From positions 186,001 through 250,000 of the forward strand of contig NZ_QLTT01000005.1 of NCBI RefSeq assembly GCF_003269295.1: a stretch of 64,000 nt of DNA, given 5' to 3'. Below are positions 6,045 to 14,255 of this stretch, one piece after another. Source of the stretch: Lentzea atacamensis (GTDB lineage: Bacteria > Actinomycetota > Actinomycetes > Mycobacteriales > Pseudonocardiaceae). The translations under genes and the position numbers were made by a program. A model generated the notes under the pieces. It saw only the letters and a list, made by a program, of their open reading frames with translations. It made no database searches and had not been told where the DNA came from. Each line of letters starts with the position of its first letter. Position 1 is the first letter of the stretch.

Positions 6045-7517
6045 ATGGCGACCTCTGTCACTGAGACCGAACGCAAGTACGAGGCACCATCGGACGCGAG
6101 CCTGCCGGACCTCACCGAGATCACCGGCGTAGCGACCGGCCCGGAGGAGTTCGACCTGGAAGCCACGTACTTCGACACCGACGACTACCGCCTGGCGCGC
6201 GCGGGCGTGACCCTCCGCCGCCGCGTGGGCGGCGACGACGAAGGCTGGCACCTCAAACTCCCCGCAGGCGAAGACTCCCGCCAGGAAGTCCGAGTCCCCC
6301 TCGGCCGAGCCGTGAAACAACCCCCGAAGGACCTCTCCTCCCTGGTCCGCGCCCACACCCGAGGCTCAGACCTGACCCCGGTCGCCGAAATCCGCACCAA
6401 CCGCCGCCGCTGGCAGCTGACCAACGGCAACGGCCAGCTCCTCGCCGAGGTGGTCGACGACGTGGTCACCGCCCAAACCATGGGCTCCTCGACCACCACC
6501 ACCTCCTGGCGCGAGATCGAGGTGGAACTGGGAGAAGGGGGCGACCGCAAACTCCTCGACACCGTCGAGCGCCACCTGGGCGACGCAGGAATCCACCCGT
6601 CCTCCTCGAAGTCCAAGCTCTCCCAGGTGATCGGCGTAAAACGAGACGCCATCCCCACCATCGGCAAAAAGTCCACAGCAGGCGACGTGGTCCTCGCCTA
6701 CCTCCACGAACAACGCGCCGCCCTGCAGAACCAGGACCCCCGAGTCCGCCGCAACGAGGACGACGCCGTCCACCAGATGCGCGTAGCCACCCGCCGCATG
6801 CGCTCAGCCCTCCAAGCCTTCGGCAAAATCGTCGACCGCGAAGCCACCCGCTCACTGACCGACGAACTCAAGTGGCTGGCCGGAGTCCTCGGCACCTCCC
6901 GAGACCTGGAAGTCCTGCGCGCACGCTTCGAAGACGGCCTCCACGCCCTCCCACCCGAACTCGTACTGGGCGACGTGGCCGCCCGCCTGACCCGCCACTT
7001 CGCCCCGCTGGAAGCCAAGGCGCACAAGGACTCCGTAGCGGCCCTGGACGGCGAGCGCTACTTCACCCTGCTCAACTCGATCGACGCCCTGCTCGCCTCT
7101 CCCCCTCTGACCAAACTCGCATCCGGCAAGGCGAAGGACGTCCTCCCCAAACTCGTGGAGAAGTCCCGCCACCGCCTGGACGTCCGAGTAGAGGCAGCCC
7201 TGGCGGCCAACAACAACGACGAGCCCCTGCACGAGGCCCGCAAAGCCGCCAAACGCCTCCGCTACTCGGCAGAGGTCGCCGAGCCCGCACTCGGCAAGCA
7301 CGCCAAGGCTTTGCGGAAGCGGGCAAAGGACGTGCAAACACTCCTAGGCGACCACCAGGACTCGGTGGTGGCCCGCCCCGTCCTCCTCGACCTGGGCCGT
7401 GGCGACGAGAACGGCTTCACCTTCGGCCTCCTGTACGGCCAAGAGGTAGAGCTGGCCCACAAGACGGAGGCAGCACTCCCAGCACTGTGGCGCAAGCTGA
7501 GCAAGGAACACCTCTAG
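6045..7517 (+). CDS. CYTH and CHAD domain protein
   Basis: 490 aa. The N-terminal CYTH domain carries the ExExK signature in TETERKYEA and alternating charged beta-strands (residues about 5-200) that line a triphosphate tunnel. The C-terminal CHAD domain (about 215-490) has the conserved His/Arg helices AVHQMRVATRRMRSAL and LHEARKAAKRLRY. CHAD domains bind inorganic polyphosphate, and CYTH domains hydrolyse or bind triphosphates, so a role in polyphosphate or triphosphate metabolism in the cytoplasm is expected. A fused CYTH-CHAD of about 500 aa is normal for actinomycetes. It stands alone, divergent from the coiled-coil gene. Confidence 0.9.
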   Translation: MATSVTETERKYEAPSDASLPDLTEITGVATGPEEFDLEATYFDTDDYRLARAGVTLRRRVGGDDEGWHLKLPAGEDSRQEVRVPLGRAVKQPPKDLSSLVRAHTRGSDLTPVAEIRTNRRRWQLTNGNGQLLAEVVDDVVTAQTMGSSTTTTSWREIEVELGEGGDRKLLDTVERHLGDAGIHPSSSKSKLSQVIGVKRDAIPTIGKKSTAGDVVLAYLHEQRAALQNQDPRVRRNEDDAVHQMRVATRRMRSALQAFGKIVDREATRSLTDELKWLAGVLGTSRDLEVLRARFEDGLHALPPELVLGDVAARLTRHFAPLEAKAHKDSVAALDGERYFTLLNSIDALLASPPLTKLASGKAKDVLPKLVEKSRHRLDVRVEAALAANNNDEPLHEARKAAKRLRYSAEVAEPALGKHAKALRKRAKDVQTLLGDHQDSVVARPVLLDLGRGDENGFTFGLLYGQEVELAHKTEAALPALWRKLSKEHL

Positions 7518-7792: not shown

Positions 7793-7808
7793 ATTGGTCT
7801 AAACCTTG
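7793..7808. promoter_or_regulatory. DasR-like operator (dre) upstream of hexosaminidase
   Basis: ATTGGTCTAAACCTTG shares the TGGTCTA-ACC core of the GntR-family DasR site (ACTGGTCTAGACCAGT), matching about 11 of 16 positions. It overlaps a TTGACA hexamer (7806-7811) and lies 72 bp before the GH20 start. DasR controls chitin/N-acetylglucosamine genes in streptomycetes, which fits the downstream enzyme. Confidence 0.55.
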
Positions 7809-7880
7809 ACACCCACCCCACCGCCTGAAACCGTGACCCCAACGCCGCCACCAAGGTCCCCCCGTGCCTGGAGGATTGGC

Positions 7881-9509
7881 GTGAAATCGAGAAAACTGCG
7901 GGCAGCCCTGACAGCGCTGACAATCGCCACCGCAGGAGTCCTGGTGACCGACCCAGCAGACGCGGCCCCAGCGGCAACATCAACCCGCGAGGCAGCGTCA
8001 ACCAGCGAGGCAGCCGCATCCCGCAAGGCAGCAACCTCGCTACAAGAACTGGTCCCCCACCCGGCCCAACTCCAGCCCCGCCCAGACATCACCTTCACCC
8101 TGACCCCGAACGCCAAGATCCAGCTGACCTCGGACACACCCCGAAAACCAGCCGAACTGCTGGCAGGGATCCTCCGCAAGTCAACAGGATTCCCCCTCCC
8201 GATCACCACAGGCGTACAGGGCGAAGGCATAGTCCTGCTAGCAGGCGCCGACCCGAGAACCGGCCAAGAGGGCTACCAGCTGGACGTGACCCCGAACCAG
8301 GTGGTCATCCGAGCCAACACCACAGCCGGCCACTTCAACGGCATCGCCACCCTCCGCCAGCTCCTCCCGCCGAAGGCGGAGGCGAAGACCAAGCAGCCAG
8401 GCCCGTGGCAAGTCCCAGGCGCGAGCATCCTCGACCACCCGAGGTACCACCACCGAGGCACCATGCTCGACGTGAGCCGCCACTTCTTCACGCCGGACCA
8501 GGTGAAACGCTACATGGACCAAGCAGCGGCCTTCAAAATCAACTACTTCCACCTCCACCTGTCGGACGACCAGGGCTGGCGCCTGGAGATCAAGAGCTGG
8601 CCGGACCTGACCAAGATCGGCGGCAGCACTGAGGTGGGTGGCCGCAAGGGCCGGCTCTACTACACCCAGGACCAGTACAGGGACCTGGTCGCGTACGCGG
8701 CGAACCGCGGCATCACCGTGATCCCGGAGTTCGACATGCCGGGCCACACCAACGCGGCACAGGCGAGTTACGCCGAACTGAACTGCGACGGCAGGAAGCG
8801 CCCGCTCTACACCGGCACCGAGGTGGGCTTCTCGTCCCTCTGCATCAGCAAGGAGATCACGTACAAGTTCATCGAGGACGTGGTCAGGGAGGTCTCCGCG
8901 ATCACCCCGGGCCCGTACTTCCACATCGGCGGTGACGAGGCCCTCTCGACTCCGGACGCCGACTACGTCAAGTTCATGAACCGCGTCCTGCCCATCGTGA
9001 AGAAGTACGGCAAGACCACGATCGGCTGGCACGAGTTCATCAAGACCACCAAGGACACCGCGGTGATCCCGCAGTTCTGGGGCACGACGACGTCCAACGC
9101 CGACGTGGCCGCGGCGGCCCAGCGCGGCAACAAGGTCCTGATGTCGCCCGCGAACCGGATCTACCTCGACATGAAGTACAACAAGGACACCAAGCTCGGC
9201 CTGAACTGGGCGGGCTACGTCGAGGTGAAGGACGCCTACAGCTGGAACCCCGGCGCGTACCTCACCGGCGTGTCCGAGGCGTCCGTCCGCGGCGTGGAAG
9301 CTCCACTGTGGACGGAGACCATCCGGACGAGCGCCGACATCGAGCAGATGGCGTTCCCGCGCCTCCCGGTGGCCGCCGAGCTCGGCTGGGCACCGGCGAG
9401 CGTGCACAGCTGGGACCGGTTCGCGCCACGGCTGGGCGCGCAGGCACCCCGCTGGAAGATCCAGGGCATCAACTACTACGCGAGCCCGCAGGTGCCGTGG
9501 AAGAAGTAG
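7881..9509 (+). CDS. Secreted beta-N-acetylhexosaminidase (GH20)
   Basis: 542 aa from GTG 7881, chosen because GGAGG sits 6 nt upstream and because the sequence then opens with a signal peptide (KSRKLRAALTALTIATAGVL...ADAAPAA). After an Ala/Ser-rich stretch comes the GH20b domain (residues about 50-165) and the catalytic barrel. The barrel shows MLDVSRHFFTPDQV, FHLHLSDDQGWRLEI, VIPEFDMPGHTNAA and the acid/base pair in YFHIGGDEA. It removes terminal GlcNAc from chitin fragments or glycans outside the cell. The DasR-like box upstream suggests induction by chitin/GlcNAc. It is convergent with the aldehyde dehydrogenase homologue, with 3 bp between stop codons. Confidence 0.92.
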   Translation: MKSRKLRAALTALTIATAGVLVTDPADAAPAATSTREAASTSEAAASRKAATSLQELVPHPAQLQPRPDITFTLTPNAKIQLTSDTPRKPAELLAGILRKSTGFPLPITTGVQGEGIVLLAGADPRTGQEGYQLDVTPNQVVIRANTTAGHFNGIATLRQLLPPKAEAKTKQPGPWQVPGASILDHPRYHHRGTMLDVSRHFFTPDQVKRYMDQAAAFKINYFHLHLSDDQGWRLEIKSWPDLTKIGGSTEVGGRKGRLYYTQDQYRDLVAYAANRGITVIPEFDMPGHTNAAQASYAELNCDGRKRPLYTGTEVGFSSLCISKEITYKFIEDVVREVSAITPGPYFHIGGDEALSTPDADYVKFMNRVLPIVKKYGKTTIGWHEFIKTTKDTAVIPQFWGTTTSNADVAAAAQRGNKVLMSPANRIYLDMKYNKDTKLGLNWAGYVEVKDAYSWNPGAYLTGVSEASVRGVEAPLWTETIRTSADIEQMAFPRLPVAAELGWAPASVHSWDRFAPRLGAQAPRWKIQGINYYASPQVPWKK

Positions 9510-9512
9510 CCC

Positions 9513-10850
9513 CTAGAAGTAGCCCTGCGCACGGCCGGAGTAGCTGACCAGCAGGTGCTTCACGCGGCGGTACTCGGCGAGCGCCGCGGTGTTCGCCGGG
9601 TACGCGTAGTAGTTGTTGACCCACACCCGCTCGGCGTTGAGCTCCTGGCCGACGTTGTGCGCCAGCGCCACGTCGCGCGACCAGATGCCGGCGCCGAGCT
9701 GGGCGGTGGTCTCGTTGGCGATCTTCACGGCGTCGTCGCGGTCGTCGAACCTCGTCACCGAGACGATCGGGCCGAGCACCTCGTCGGCGAAGACGGCGGA
9801 ACGGTGGTCGCCCTCGAAGATCGTGGGCTGGACGTAGTGGCCGGACGCCTCGCCCCCGGTCACCAGCCGCGCGCCCTCGGCCTTGCCGCGCTCGATGTAG
9901 GCGAGCACGCGGTCGCGCTGCGCCAGGCTCACCACGGCGCCGACCATGGTGTCCGTGTCGAGCGGGTCGCCCGAGCGGAGCTGCTGCGTGCGCTGGGTCG
10001 CGAGGTGCAGCAGTTCCTCGTAGATCGCGGTCTGGATGAGCGCGCGGGACGGGGCCGTGGAGATCTCGCCCTGGTTGGCCGCGAACATCGCGAAGCCTTC
10101 GAGTGCCTTGTCGAGGAAGCCGTCGCGTTGCGCGGTGACGTCGGAGAAGAAGATGTTGGGGCAGCGGCCGGCCACGACCGGGTGATCCTCGGATCCGGTG
10201 ACCACGTTCACCACACCGGGCGGCAGCAGGTCCGCGATCACGCCGAGCAGCACGTGGATCGACGCCGGCGTCTGCAGCGCGGGCTCCAGCACCACGGCGT
10301 TGCCGGCGGCCAGCGCGGGGGCGAGCACGCGGCCCGCGTTCATCAGCGGGAACGTCCACGAGAGCCGTTCGTGCACCACGCCGAGCGGCTGGAACGAGCG
10401 GTAGTCGCAGGTGTCGCGGCCGAGCTGCTCGACCTCGCCGACCTCGGTGCGGATGACGGCGGCGAACTGGCGGAACTGCTCGATCAGCATCGGGACGTCG
10501 GCGACCAGGGCCTCGCGCACCGGCTTGCCGTTGTCCCACGTCTCGGCGACCGCGAGCTCGGTCGCGTGCTCCTCCACCCGGTCCGCGATCTCGCCCAGGA
10601 CCGTGGCGCGCTCTCGTGCCGTGGTCCTCCCCCACGCGCGTGCGGCGCCGCTGGCGGAGTGCAGGGCACGCGCCCTGTCGGCGTCGGTACCGCGCGCGAC
10701 CTCGGTGAAGACCTCACCGGTCACCGGCGTGACGTTCTCGACGTACTCACCGGAGACGGGCGGCACGTAGTCGCCGCCGATGAAGTGGTCGTACCTCGGC
10801 CGGTACGCGACCACGCTGCCGGGCCGACCCGGCGCCGCGTACTGCGTCAT
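9513..10850 (-). CDS. Aldehyde dehydrogenase homologue lacking catalytic motifs (probable pseudoenzyme)
   Basis: 445 aa against about 505 for AldB/ExaC-type enzymes. The N-terminal scaffold (YDHFIGGDYVPPVSGEYVEN) and C-terminal end (KHLLVSYSGRAQGYF) clearly match this group. The catalytic parts do not. The PWNFP oxyanion Asn is replaced (SWTFP), the cofactor Lys of VLKPA is Glu (VLEPA), and GEVCT reads GEIST with Ser for the nucleophile Cys. About 40 residues holding the GSTEVG loop and ELGGK glutamate are missing between VVTGS and CPNIFF, and the GGYKQSGIGRE loop is also absent. The frame is intact, with a good RBS (GGGAG). It is divergent from a GAF regulator of the type that normally controls such dehydrogenases. 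Confidence 0.85.
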   Translation of the reverse strand: MTQYAAPGRPGSVVAYRPRYDHFIGGDYVPPVSGEYVENVTPVTGEVFTEVARGTDADRARALHSASGAARAWGRTTARERATVLGEIADRVEEHATELAVAETWDNGKPVREALVADVPMLIEQFRQFAAVIRTEVGEVEQLGRDTCDYRSFQPLGVVHERLSWTFPLMNAGRVLAPALAAGNAVVLEPALQTPASIHVLLGVIADLLPPGVVNVVTGSEDHPVVAGRCPNIFFSDVTAQRDGFLDKALEGFAMFAANQGEISTAPSRALIQTAIYEELLHLATQRTQQLRSGDPLDTDTMVGAVVSLAQRDRVLAYIERGKAEGARLVTGGEASGHYVQPTIFEGDHRSAVFADEVLGPIVSVTRFDDRDDAVKIANETTAQLGAGIWSRDVALAHNVGQELNAERVWVNNYYAYPANTAALAEYRRVKHLLVSYSGRAQGYF

Positions 10851-10918
10851 TCTCGACTCCCGCTGGGTGGCTCGGGTGGGGAAAATGAGAAACTAGGCAG
10901 CAGAACGTTGCATGCTCG

Positions 10919-12388
10919 TTGCAAGCCGTGGATGGATCAGTGGCCCACGACCCCGGGCAACACGCACTGTTGCTGAGTCGCGTAAGAGATGCCGTGTTGA
11001 GTGGTACTCGCACGGTGGATTCGCCACGCTCAGTGATTTCCGCGTCGTGGCAACGGTCACTCGCCGCCAACGTGGATCCGGACCTGCACACCGCCCCCAC
11101 GGTCTTCGCCGCCGACGAACTTCCCGACCTGCGCGAACGGCATCCGCTGCACCCCAGCCTGCCGGTGCTGCGCGAGACCCTGCTCGGCTTCGCGCACGAG
11201 GCCAGGCACATCATGATCGTCGCGGACGCGCAGGGCCACATCCTGTGGTGCGAGGGCTCCCACGACACCCGCCTGAGCGCGGAGGACGTCGGCCTCGCGG
11301 AAGGAACGCGCTGGTCGGAGGACGCGGCGGGGACGAACGGCATGGGCACCGCGCTCGCGACGAACGCACCGGTCACGGTCCACTCCGCCGAGCACCTCGT
11401 GCGGACCTATCACCACTGGACGTGCGCGGCGAGCCCGATCCGCGACCCCGACACCGGCAGGACGATCGGCGTCGTCGACCTCAGCGGCCCGATCGAGACG
11501 GTCCATCCGTCGATGGTGGCGCTGGTGTCCGCGTCGGCCCGGCTCGCCGAGTCGGGAATGCTCGCCAGGATGCACGCGCAGGACGAGGAGTTGCGAGCAC
11601 GCAACATGCGGCACCTGATCGCGTTGCGCGGCGAGCCCGGCGCGCTGCTCAGCCCGACCGGCAGGGTCGTCGCGGTCGAGCCGTACGGGCTGCTGCCGTC
11701 ACGCGTCGACGTCTCCAGCGACCGGGTGCGGCTGCCGGACGGCCGGGAGGCGGTGCTGGAACCCCTCGCCCGCGGCTATCTGCTGCGCATGCCCCGGCAA
11801 CGGCACGTGCGCAGGTCGGTGCTGTCGCTGTCGTTCCTGCTCCCGGAGCCGAAGGTCGTGCTGGACGGGCGCGAGGTGCCGATCTCGCTGCGGCACGCGG
11901 AGATCCTGTGCGCGCTGGCGTTGCACGGCAGGCTCTCGGCCGACCAGCTGGCACTGCGGCTCTACGGCGAGCGCGGCAACCCGACGACGGTGCGCGCCGA
12001 GCTGCACCGGCTGCGCGCCCAGCTCGGCGCCGACGTGCTGGCGACCAGGCCGTACCGGCTGACCGCGGACGTCGAGGCCGACTTTCTGGCCGTGCGGGCC
12101 GCGTTGAAGGACGGTGACGTGCCGCTGGCCGCCTCCCGGTACCGCGGCTCCCTGCTGCGCCGCTCCGAGGCACCGGTCGTGCTCGCCGAGCGCGACGATC
12201 TGGCGTCCGGCGTGCGCAAGGCCGTCCTGTCGCGCGGGGACGGGAACGCGCTGTGGACGTTCACCCAGACCGACTCGGGAGAACACGACGTCGAGGCACT
12301 GGAACAGCTGGTCAGGCTACTTCCGGCGGACGACGTGCGGCTCGCGATCGCCACCGCGCGGCTGAGGAGACTCAATCAGGACGATTGA
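10919..12388 (+). CDS. GAF-domain transcriptional regulator with C-terminal winged helix
   Basis: About 489 aa from TTG 10919 (a GTG at 10928 is the alternative). The N-terminal part carries the VDSPRSVISASWQRSLA segment typical of AcoR-type regulators, then a GAF domain (residues about 75-200: GTNGMGTALATN, HHWTCAASPIRDP). There is no AAA+ sigma-54 domain. Instead a C-terminal winged helix (RHAEILCALALHGRLSADQL...VRAELHRLRAQLG) resembles the DNA-binding domain of SARP/OmpR proteins. Proteins of this build are usually encoded next to aldehyde dehydrogenases in actinomycetes. Here the partner has lost its active site. Confidence 0.85.
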   Translation: MQAVDGSVAHDPGQHALLLSRVRDAVLSGTRTVDSPRSVISASWQRSLAANVDPDLHTAPTVFAADELPDLRERHPLHPSLPVLRETLLGFAHEARHIMIVADAQGHILWCEGSHDTRLSAEDVGLAEGTRWSEDAAGTNGMGTALATNAPVTVHSAEHLVRTYHHWTCAASPIRDPDTGRTIGVVDLSGPIETVHPSMVALVSASARLAESGMLARMHAQDEELRARNMRHLIALRGEPGALLSPTGRVVAVEPYGLLPSRVDVSSDRVRLPDGREAVLEPLARGYLLRMPRQRHVRRSVLSLSFLLPEPKVVLDGREVPISLRHAEILCALALHGRLSADQLALRLYGERGNPTTVRAELHRLRAQLGADVLATRPYRLTADVEADFLAVRAALKDGDVPLAASRYRGSLLRRSEAPVVLAERDDLASGVRKAVLSRGDGNALWTFTQTDSGEHDVEALEQLVRLLPADDVRLAIATARLRRLNQDD

Positions 12389-12445: not shown

Positions 12446-13720
12446 ATGCGCGCACTCATCATCGGAGCGGGGACCGGGGGCCTGTGCCTGGCGCACGGGT
12501 TGAAGAAGGCCGGCGTGGACGTGGCGCTGTTCGAACGCGACCGCACGCCGCGCAGCATGCTGATCGGCTTCCGGGTCGGGATCAGCCCGGACGGCAGCAA
12601 AGCGCTGCACAGCTGCTTGCCTCCGGAGGTGTTCGCCGAGTTCGTCCGCACGACGGCGAGGCCGGTCCGCCGGATCAACATGCGCACCGAGAAGTACGGC
12701 GAGCTCCTCGTCGCCGACCTGCCGCCCGCGGTGGACGAGACCCGCAGCGAGAAGTCCGTCAGCCGGATCGCGATGCGGACCGCGCTGCTCAACGGGCTGG
12801 AGGACGTCGTCCGGTTCGACAAGACCTTCACGCACTACCGCCACAACGACGACGGCACGGTCACGGCGTTCTTCGCCGACGGCACGTCCGAGACCGGTGA
12901 CGTGCTCGTGGGCGCGGACGGCGCGCAGTCGAAGGTCCGCAAGCAGCGCCTGCCGGACGCGAAGGTGGTCGACACCGGCATCACTTCGATCGCGGGCAAG
13001 CTGAAGATGACGCCGGAGACACTCGCGTTGCTCCCACCTGACGGCGACGAGGCCGTCACGCTGCTCTACGGGCCCAAAGGCGCGTTCGTGATCCTCCACG
13101 TGATGCACTTCGACAACGGAGGCGCCGAGGACGACTACATCATGTGGGGCTTCTCCGCAGCCCACGACAAGTTCCCCGACCTGCGCGGGATGACCCAGGA
13201 CCAGCTCAAGCAGGTCGTGCTGGACCTGACCCCGAACTATCACCCGAACCTGCGCGAGCTCTTCCGCCGCGCGAATCCGGAGACCGTGTTCGAGATCCGC
13301 ATCCGCACTTCGGAGAAGCTGCCGCCGTGGCAGGCGAGCAACGTCACGATGATCGGCGACTCCGTCCACCTCATGACACCCGGGCGCGGCATCGGCGCGA
13401 ACACCGCGCTGCGGGACGCGGAGTTGTTGTGCCGCAAGCTCGTCGAGGCGCACCACGGCAAGGACCTGGTCGAGGCCGTCTCCGAGTACGAGCGGGAGAT
13501 GGTCGAGTACGGGTTCGAGGCGGTGCTCGCCTCACGCGAGCAGATGGACGGGCGTGGCGCGATCCACAAGCCGGTGATCGGCCGGGTCGTGCTGGCATGT
13601 TTCCGCACGTTCCTGCGGGTCACGAACGCGCTGCCACCGCTGAAGCGCCGCATGATGGCGAGGGACATGGCCGATCGTGATCACGTAGATTCAGCCCATG
13701 AGGTGGTTCACGCCCGGTGA
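12446..13720 (+). CDS. FAD-dependent monooxygenase (PHBH-like)
   Basis: 424 aa from ATG 12446, preceded by GGGGAGA. It has the N-terminal Rossmann motif IIGAGTGGLCLAHGLKKAG, the mid-protein DVLVGADGAQSKVRKQRLP (DG motif), and VTMIGDSVHLMTPGRGIGAN (GD motif) that closes the FAD site. These three define group A flavoprotein hydroxylases that act on aromatic or polyketide substrates with NAD(P)H and O2. The substrate cannot be told from sequence. The gene overlaps the start of the DUF402 gene by 23 bp and has its own promoter-like region. Confidence 0.85.
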   Translation: MRALIIGAGTGGLCLAHGLKKAGVDVALFERDRTPRSMLIGFRVGISPDGSKALHSCLPPEVFAEFVRTTARPVRRINMRTEKYGELLVADLPPAVDETRSEKSVSRIAMRTALLNGLEDVVRFDKTFTHYRHNDDGTVTAFFADGTSETGDVLVGADGAQSKVRKQRLPDAKVVDTGITSIAGKLKMTPETLALLPPDGDEAVTLLYGPKGAFVILHVMHFDNGGAEDDYIMWGFSAAHDKFPDLRGMTQDQLKQVVLDLTPNYHPNLRELFRRANPETVFEIRIRTSEKLPPWQASNVTMIGDSVHLMTPGRGIGANTALRDAELLCRKLVEAHHGKDLVEAVSEYEREMVEYGFEAVLASREQMDGRGAIHKPVIGRVVLACFRTFLRVTNALPPLKRRMMARDMADRDHVDSAHEVVHAR

Positions 13721-14255
13721 GGTCATCGTGCGGCGGGAGGTGCTGCACGGCAAGGTCTGGTCCGAGATGCCGACCAGGGTGGTCGTCGACGAACCGGGCC
13801 TGCTCGCGGTGTTCGTGGAGCCGGGCACCCGGCTCACCTATCCCGACCACCACCACCCGCACCCGTGGGACAAGCCCGAGCGCGGGTTCTGGCGAGGGCA
13901 CGGCAAGCTCATGCTGCACCGGCCGGAGGACGCCTACTCCGTCGACCTGTTCTGGAAGGGCGACGACCGGGTCTTCGGCAACTACTACCTGAACCTGCAG
14001 GCCCCCTACCGCCGCACCGAGGACGGGTTCGAGACGCTCGACCACGCGCTGGACTACACGATGGCGCCGGACGGCACGTGGGAGCAGCGCGACCTCGACG
14101 AGTTCGAGGAGCAGGTGGCGTCCGGCAAGTACTCCGCCCAGGAGGCCGAGGCGATCAGGGCGGAGGGCCAGAAGATCGAGAAGATGCTGGCCTCCGGCGA
14201 GATCTGGTGGGACACGGCCTGGGCGGACTGGCACCCTCGCGCGGAGTGGCGGTGA
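13698..14255 (+). CDS. DUF402 (FomD/Ntdp-like) protein
   Basis: 185 aa. DUF402 features are visible: RVVVDEPGLLAVFVEPGT, the GNYYLNLQAPYRRTEDGFET block and LDYTMAPDGTWEQRDLDEFEE. The family includes nucleoside di/triphosphate phosphatases and FomD, which cleaves a cytidylyl-phosphonate intermediate. A hydrolase on nucleotide-linked substrates is the likely activity, but the physiological substrate is unknown. It starts inside the monooxygenase gene and ends in a GTGA overlap with the kinase-like gene, so the three are probably co-translated. Confidence 0.8.
   Translation: MRWFTPGEVIVRREVLHGKVWSEMPTRVVVDEPGLLAVFVEPGTRLTYPDHHHPHPWDKPERGFWRGHGKLMLHRPEDAYSVDLFWKGDDRVFGNYYLNLQAPYRRTEDGFETLDHALDYTMAPDGTWEQRDLDEFEEQVASGKYSAQEAEAIRAEGQKIEKMLASGEIWWDTAWADWHPRAEWR

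Follow-up and report, generated by a model that had tools for sequence, protein, structure and literature searches.

A retained ExaC-derived aldehyde dehydrogenase, predicted to be a pseudoenzyme, beside a divergent GAF regulator in Lentzea

Several described systems resemble parts of the locus studied here. In animals, ALDH16A1 is an aldehyde dehydrogenase (ALDH) pseudoenzyme that is thought to act via protein contacts (PMC10650815, excerpt). DhaL and DhaK act through binding to DhaR (PMC5890353, excerpt), and DHA activates DhaR (PMC6643234, excerpt, which also cites the paper on DhaR binding). In the Ssd1/Dis3L2 pseudonucleases, catalysis has been lost repeatedly in independent lineages and a second function has been conserved (PMC8097288, abstract). 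In the excerpted text of PMC4207490, the word pseudoenzyme occurs in the reference list only. ALDH pseudoenzymes are known already, as is the recurrent loss of catalysis from proteins whose second function is conserved; neither was found for ExaC in the open-licence PMC literature. A search of titles and abstracts in that literature found no description of the protein studied here, a result that speaks for this literature and not for print as a whole.

The window analyzed here is a stretch of 64,000 nucleotides from Lentzea atacamensis (assembly GCF_003269295.1, contig NZ_QLTT01000005.1, positions 186,001 to 250,000). On its minus strand, an open reading frame from 10850 to 9513 encodes a protein of 445 amino acids, with ATG as the first codon and GGGAG upstream. 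A plus-strand open reading frame of 473 aa at 9555-10976 is probably not a real gene; the third-position GC of 0.94 in the minus frame is in keeping with the minus-strand gene. The 445-aa protein belongs to PF00171 (Aldedh, Pfam; 307.5 bits, cut-off 23), and it scored 528.8 bits against NF050026 (ExaC, NCBIfam), below the curated cut-off of 900. Its best solved relatives were 9fm9 and the ExaC structure 9koi, and each of these alignments was split in two around a gap. The same genome encodes an intact ExaC of 507 aa elsewhere (C1:930259-931674) with 60% identity to the 445-aa protein, and this full-length paralogue was used as the reference for listing residue losses.

In the alignment to the paralogue, Asn166 was replaced by Thr (10353..10355), Lys189 by Glu (10284..10286), and Cys302 by Ser264 (10059..10061), all on the minus strand. 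The 38 ExaC residues between 224 and 263, including the GETTTG loop and the Glu of ELGG, are missing (junction at 10173..10193, minus strand), and the remainder of LGGK reads VAGR. Also missing are the C-terminal active-site loop, ExaC residues 469-484 (GGYKQSGIGRE; junction at 9585..9593, minus strand), and residues 373-380, and EIFGP of ExaC is EVLGP. Both scaffold ends of the ALDH are present (MTQYAAPG... and KHLLVSYS...GYF). We take the Cys, Asn, and Lys residues and the GxTxxG/ELGG motifs to be catalytic or NAD-binding, and by alignment the protein lacks this ExaC set of catalytic Cys, Asn, and Lys with the NAD-binding GxTxxG/ELGG stretch. The sequence-only reading that preceded this work had reported the Cys to Ser, Asn to Thr, and Lys to Glu changes, a loss of about 40 residues with the NAD loops, the absence of the GGYKQSGIGRE loop, and the preservation of the reading frame, the ribosome-binding site, and both scaffold ends; every one of these points that was checked was borne out, and the gap at 373-380, the intact ExaC elsewhere in the genome, and a putative operator (see below) are additional to it. 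The 445-aa protein descends from the acetaldehyde dehydrogenase ExaC, and the cofactor loop, the catalytic residues, and the active-site loop were lost in frame. Judged from its sequence, it may be classed as an ExaC-derived ALDH pseudoenzyme (9513..10850, minus strand), since it matches the family profile, has lost catalytic residues, and evolves under purifying selection.

The pseudoenzyme gene was found in all 24 Lentzea genomes searched, and all 24 copies are open from ATG to stop (441-449 aa). The NAD-loop and C-terminal deletions were found in the same 24 genomes, with slightly different ends in one of them (G019), whose copy has lost the NAD loop and still has the catalytic Cys and Asn. 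The Lentzea copies and 19 other short forms each read as one open frame, and therefore the deletions are in frame. Two Lentzea pseudoenzymes (L035 and L036) stop four residues early (441 aa), one of them at a TAG within the match.

Selection on the gene was compared with that on the intact paralogue, on the linked divergent regulator, and on a neighbouring FAD monooxygenase-like (FMO) gene. Over 253 pairs from 23 Lentzea sequences (G019 left out where present), the median NG86 omega was 0.203 in the dead gene, compared with 0.154 in the intact paralogue, 0.166 in the regulator, and 0.393 in the FMO neighbour. Codon models fitted by maximum likelihood (ML) gave 0.113, 0.061, 0.094, and 0.164, respectively. 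By region, the ML omega of the dead and the intact gene was 0.090 vs 0.094 for residues 2-120, 0.123 vs 0.032 for residues 121-224, and 0.113 vs 0.063 for residues 225-441. The relaxation sits in the catalytic parts, and residues 2-120 are as constrained in the dead protein as in the enzyme. Among the 23 Lentzea proteins without G019, the former Cys position drifts (15 Ser, 5 Ala, 2 Pro, and 1 Thr), indicating no constraint, and the former Asn position is Thr in 20 and Ala in three. Glu189 and Leu359 are new residues fixed in 23/23 Lentzea, and Glu189 is also present in G019. It is well supported that the Lentzea gene is a retained pseudoenzyme under purifying selection and not a case of simple decay. 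The sequence-only reading had proposed as much and had said that absent orthologues and neutral dN/dS would mean simple decay; 24/24 congeners have an orthologue that shares the losses (that of G019 keeping Cys and Asn), and omega is 0.11 by ML and 0.20 by the NG86 median, fairly close to the 0.06 and 0.15 of the intact paralogue and the 0.09 and 0.17 of the regulator.

Residues 46-120 (10491..10715, minus strand) show higher conservation in the dead protein than the congeneric intact paralogue does and are a candidate interaction surface. In this stretch, 18 columns vary in the enzyme only and seven in the dead form only, compared with 34 and 109 elsewhere (Fisher, 5e-6). The stretch was picked after inspection; when every 75-column window was scanned, none of 5000 column shuffles equalled the result, though such shuffles disregard the correlation of adjacent columns. 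Relative conservation of residues 46-120 is common to the dead groups of three genera, with 0.55, 0.63, and 0.72 of the group mean, the last two being dead forms of two genera outside Lentzea; intact groups gave 0.86, 1.25, and 1.51. The most variable stretch of the Lentzea pseudoenzyme is residues 121-180, which presumably include the ALDH oligomerisation hairpin.

The divergent regulator is encoded at 10919..12388 on the plus strand, and profile and structure matches assign to it a GAF domain and a C-terminal part weakly like winged helices. The best named match of the GAF domain was DhaR, and it was weak (67.5 bits vs a cut-off of 551; PDB E 3.8e-4), as was the match of the C-terminal part to SaeR (E 0.3). 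The listed TTG start (10919) overlaps the putative operator, and the true start is probably the GTG at 10928 or 10940. The regulator is divergent from the pseudoenzyme gene in 24/24 Lentzea, so that an enzyme gene paired with a GAF-containing regulator, the arrangement of co-regulators of the DhaK/DhaL type, is found in all 24. It also adjoins 18 of the 19 short ALDH forms of other genera. Of 13 extra loci, five have a regulator of this family with no ExaC adjoining it, which counts against a role of the ALDH on the regulator. These five paralogues (L259, L260, L262, L263, and L264) have a related repeat with GGCAACG (four) or CGCAACG (one) as second half, and at four of the five loci, L260 being left out, the divergent gene is by eye a response regulator with REC and LuxR domains.

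The regulators beside the intact ExaC in 23 Lentzea (L125-L147) lack about 75 aa that, in the window-type regulator, separate the GAF domain from the C-terminal domain. They are 395-404 aa long in 21/23, compared with 492-495 aa for the window type in 24/24; two are shorter, and one of these adjoins a contig end. A GEPGA motif was found in 0/23 of them and in 24/24 of the window type, and it is a poor marker alone in other genera. At one further locus (L227 5105-6991, G044), the regulator beside an intact ExaC aligned as two overlapping pieces and is possibly broken.

A direct repeat, TGCAACG-N4-TGCAACG with an 11-bp period, lies between the two genes (10906..10923, minus strand), and a -10-like TAGTTT follows 10 nt past the second heptamer (10890..10895, minus strand), conserved as TA.TTT (TAnnnT) in Lentzea. 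The repeat is present between the regulator and the dead ALDH gene with 0 mismatches and an identical spacer in 24/24 Lentzea, with one mismatch at 23/23 intact-ExaC loci of Lentzea, and with at most one mismatch at 18/19 short forms of other genera and at 23/23 longer forms. It has one exact match in the 9.3-Mb genome of the window; in 12 genomes searched, there was exactly one match in ten and none in two, and a reversed control pattern gave four matches in 3/12 genomes, none of them in the genome of the window. When two mismatches are allowed, 0.65 matches are expected by chance within the window, and the weight of the operator therefore comes from its conservation. Direct heptamers at an 11-bp period beside a -10 box resemble sites of SARP/OmpR-type activators. 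The pairing of the TGCAACG repeat with the GAF regulator as its putative operator is based on conservation, and the matches of the control pattern count against it. The -10 box is worn in the short forms outside Lentzea, which counts against the co-regulatory reading given below.

The wider neighbourhood is also conserved. On the plus strand of the window lie a CHAD/CYTH-like gene (6045..7517), a GH20 beta-hexosaminidase-like gene (7806..9509) that had no match in the family search, and a FomD-like gene (13698..14255; 92.9 bits, cut-off 320). In Lentzea, the FMO and FomD-like genes were found at 24/24 loci and GH20 at 23/24. The slot CHAD - GH20 - ALDH - GAF regulator - FomD-like is common to three other genera (g21, g22, and g32), and a fourth (g27) shares GH20, ALDH, and regulator with it. 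The FMO gene lies beyond the regulator (12446-13720) in 24/24 Lentzea and evolves faster, as its ML omega of 0.164 indicates, and the same search did not find it at the g21, g22, g27, and g32 loci read.

Outside Lentzea, a family sample of 297 genomes, in which the best five candidates per genome were scored, contained 19 genomes with matches running through the deletion. All 19 short forms have a single open frame to a C-terminal stop, and in four of them a stop near the C-terminal end of the match was flagged. In g21, 21 loci were read, one per g21 genome among the listed regulator matches, and the same slot held ten intact ExaC, three intermediates, and eight dead short forms. The intermediates are L230 (Cys to Gly), L235 (Cys to Arg and Asn to Asp), and L240 (Asn to Asp, Cys kept). 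In g27, 8/8 loci read were dead; they were chosen by deletion-spanning matches and represent all g27 genomes with a match in the family sample. Of the three g22 genomes, two carry an intact ExaC with a regulator followed in tandem by a dead copy with a regulator, and the third has an intact ExaC. At the one g32 locus read (L241), the ALDH has its full length, with Ser in place of Cys. The deletions recur at three places with varying extent (about 224-263, 293-307, and 461-484), and the C-terminal tail is shortened or altered in g21 dead forms. Omega was 0.267 for six g21 dead forms, 0.083 for intact g21, and 0.155 for g27 dead forms. A further ExaC-like gene, L226 (G190, g26), has the NAD loop deleted and the catalytic Cys kept, and it stands without the GAF regulator or the operator.

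The order and class samples, in which the best four candidates per genome were searched in a way that favours deletion forms like that of the query and may miss others, gave matches in at least 7/397 genomes (five Lentzea, one g21, and one of another family, G691) and, at E<=1e-93, in the genome of the window only among 394, respectively. The dead ExaC of G691 (L272) has Asn changed to Glu and Lys to Ala, and the NAD loop and the Cys loop are gone. Its GAF regulator is co-oriented and more distant (37-40% identical), and its operator is poor, with two mismatches. In a congener of G691 with a 74%-complete assembly (L274, G713), the copy appears frame-shifted, which counts against retention for a co-regulatory role.

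Whether the dead forms have one origin was addressed with two trees. In the ALDH tree, which took in 7/24 dead and 7/23 intact sequences of Lentzea, one clade of all dead forms (28 of 59 rows, without L226 and L240) was marginally disfavoured (AU p 0.054), and one clade of the deletion forms alone (25 rows) had an AU p of 0.315. In the regulator tree (53 rows, with 7/24 and 5/23 Lentzea regulators, after removal of one long row), a single clade for the 29 dead-linked regulators was rejected (AU p 1.25e-109), the groups being set by the state of the neighbouring ALDH and tested after the tree had been viewed. Rejection held when the intermediates were removed (25 rows; p 4.3e-9). The fewest changes on the regulator tree are eight; in the g22 tandems, the second-scoring regulator was taken as dead-linked. 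Since the regulator tree rejects one dead-linked clade, catalysis was probably lost repeatedly. A single ancient origin by duplication was rejected as the explanation: the regulator tree excludes it, if regulator and ALDH were co-inherited, and the ALDH tree is compatible with it. Losses also occurred in opposite order. The G019 copy lost the NAD loop and kept Cys and Asn, and L230 (505 aa) and L241 (507 aa) have lost Cys, with Asn and Lys kept. Repeated loss of catalysis, with retention of the regulator, the operator, and the N-terminal third, is probable; the regulator tree strongly supports such repetition, and the ALDH tree by itself does not.

Constant features are the regulator, the operator, and the N-terminal third, and DhaR is the nearest named relative of the regulator's GAF domain; thus ExaC and its dead descendants would most likely act on the GAF regulator. 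Our main reading, to which we give a probability of about 0.5, is that the retained pseudoenzyme gene acts through its protein product, and that the second, non-catalytic job of ExaC would most likely be co-regulation of the GAF regulator. Judging from the comparison of loci, the best-supported function would be the one guessed in the sequence-only reading, a regulatory or binding role on the divergent regulator, because of the linkage (24/24 Lentzea and 18/19 other short forms), the kept operator, and the existence of dead-form genomes without ExaC. Such a second function of actinomycete ExaC would rest mainly on the N-terminal third (residues 1-120), and it was probably kept several times when catalysis was discarded. 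We hypothesize that the pseudoenzyme binds the regulator. The ALDH protein would bind the sensor (GAF) region and set the activity of the regulator, much as the enzyme subunits DhaK and DhaL control DhaR. Acting at the TGCAACG repeat, near the -35 position, the regulator would turn on the ALDH gene, and the ALDH protein that builds up would complete a feedback loop on the regulator. The dead form would be the protein component of this loop minus the enzyme. The similarity to DhaR is weak and GAF domains of this kind can bind small ligands, both of which count against control by protein contact. A broader and tentative proposal is that actinomycete ExaC is perhaps bifunctional, combining aldehyde oxidation with co-regulation of a dedicated GAF regulator, and that the enzyme was deleted several times at one slot and the co-regulator kept.

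Other roles are weighed against co-regulation of the regulator. The protein might instead be a regulatory or stabilising subunit that assembles with the intact ExaC, or with some other ALDH, into hetero-oligomers and tunes its partner. Intact ExaC is found in 23/24 Lentzea genomes, and the ALDH-fold C-terminal tail and the N-terminal parts are present in Lentzea. However, an ExaC-profile match over the family cut-off was found in 0/18 genomes comprising G019, eight g21 and eight g27 dead-form genomes, and the carrier of an intermediate (G282), and in 0/1 for G691; the control for the 18 genomes had 4/14 named genomes over the cut-off. An intact ExaC of the present family may score below this cut-off. 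In the 17 dead-form genomes of G019, g21, and g27, the best ALDH reached 453 bits in the ExaC-profile search, and the search that scored the best five candidates per genome gave one match in each at E<=1e-75, the dead form itself. With G691, eighteen dead-form genomes have no ExaC that passes the cut-off, though other ALDHs are present, and a role in tuning ExaC therefore cannot be general. The altered tail in g21 dead forms and the variability of residues 121-180 in Lentzea also argue against this subunit role, which we consider improbable. Less doubtful, and still unlikely, is a binding protein that has been neofunctionalised as a ligand carrier, sink, or scaffold and is induced by the GAF regulator without acting on it. 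The gene is kept beside the putative operator, and Glu189 and Leu359 are newly fixed in 23/23 Lentzea, but the ligand cleft is the part that was removed, and different lineages remove different parts of it.

Slow decay of an unneeded gene, in frame by chance, fits the graded erosion in g21, the omega of 0.267 there, the worn -10 box in other genera, and the apparently frame-shifted copy in G713, and some lineages other than Lentzea may indeed be losing the gene. The omega of 0.113 over 23 Lentzea genomes, the operator identical in 24/24, and the open frames with in-frame deletions in 24 Lentzea and 19 other short forms oppose it, and decay is very improbable overall and strongly disfavoured for Lentzea. 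A different, NAD- and Cys-independent reaction is hardly credible: the fold core appears to be retained and G019 has Cys and Asn, but these two positions vary within Lentzea, and the protein has neither the NAD loop nor the C-terminal active-site loop. Co-regulation of the GAF regulator remains our preferred reading. One slot shows the staged passage from enzyme to pseudoenzyme, with intact forms, forms without Cys, and forms with the cofactor loop excised beside the same kind of regulator and operator. Such a series suggests that a common enzyme has a hidden second function, for which residues of about 1-120 are the place to look, and if the bifunctional proposal is true, the slot gives a natural series of separation-of-function mutants.

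Among known systems, ExaC (NF050026; 9koi and 9fm9) is the direct ancestor of the window protein and has the same scaffold ends, but the window protein is under the family cut-off and has lost both the NAD loop and the C-terminal loop, along with the catalytic Cys, Asn, and Lys. DhaR with DhaK/DhaL (4lrx, 4lry, and 4lrz), as far as the excerpted sources describe it, is a GAF-containing regulator of the enzyme's own genes that is controlled by contact with enzyme subunits. It is a different regulator, longer than that of the window (a 643-position model), whose C-terminal part is weakly like SaeR and whose contact with the ALDH is hypothetical. The Ssd1/Dis3L2 pseudonucleases share repeated catalytic loss with conservation of a second function, but they are fungal RNA-binding proteins, and their abstract (PMC8097288) mentions no linked regulator or operator. 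ALDH16A1, compared here by its description in an excerpt, belongs to another family and other organisms. Like the window protein, it has the ALDH fold without the catalytic residues, but in the window protein the stretch that binds the cofactor is deleted, and its loss recurs next to a conserved regulator.
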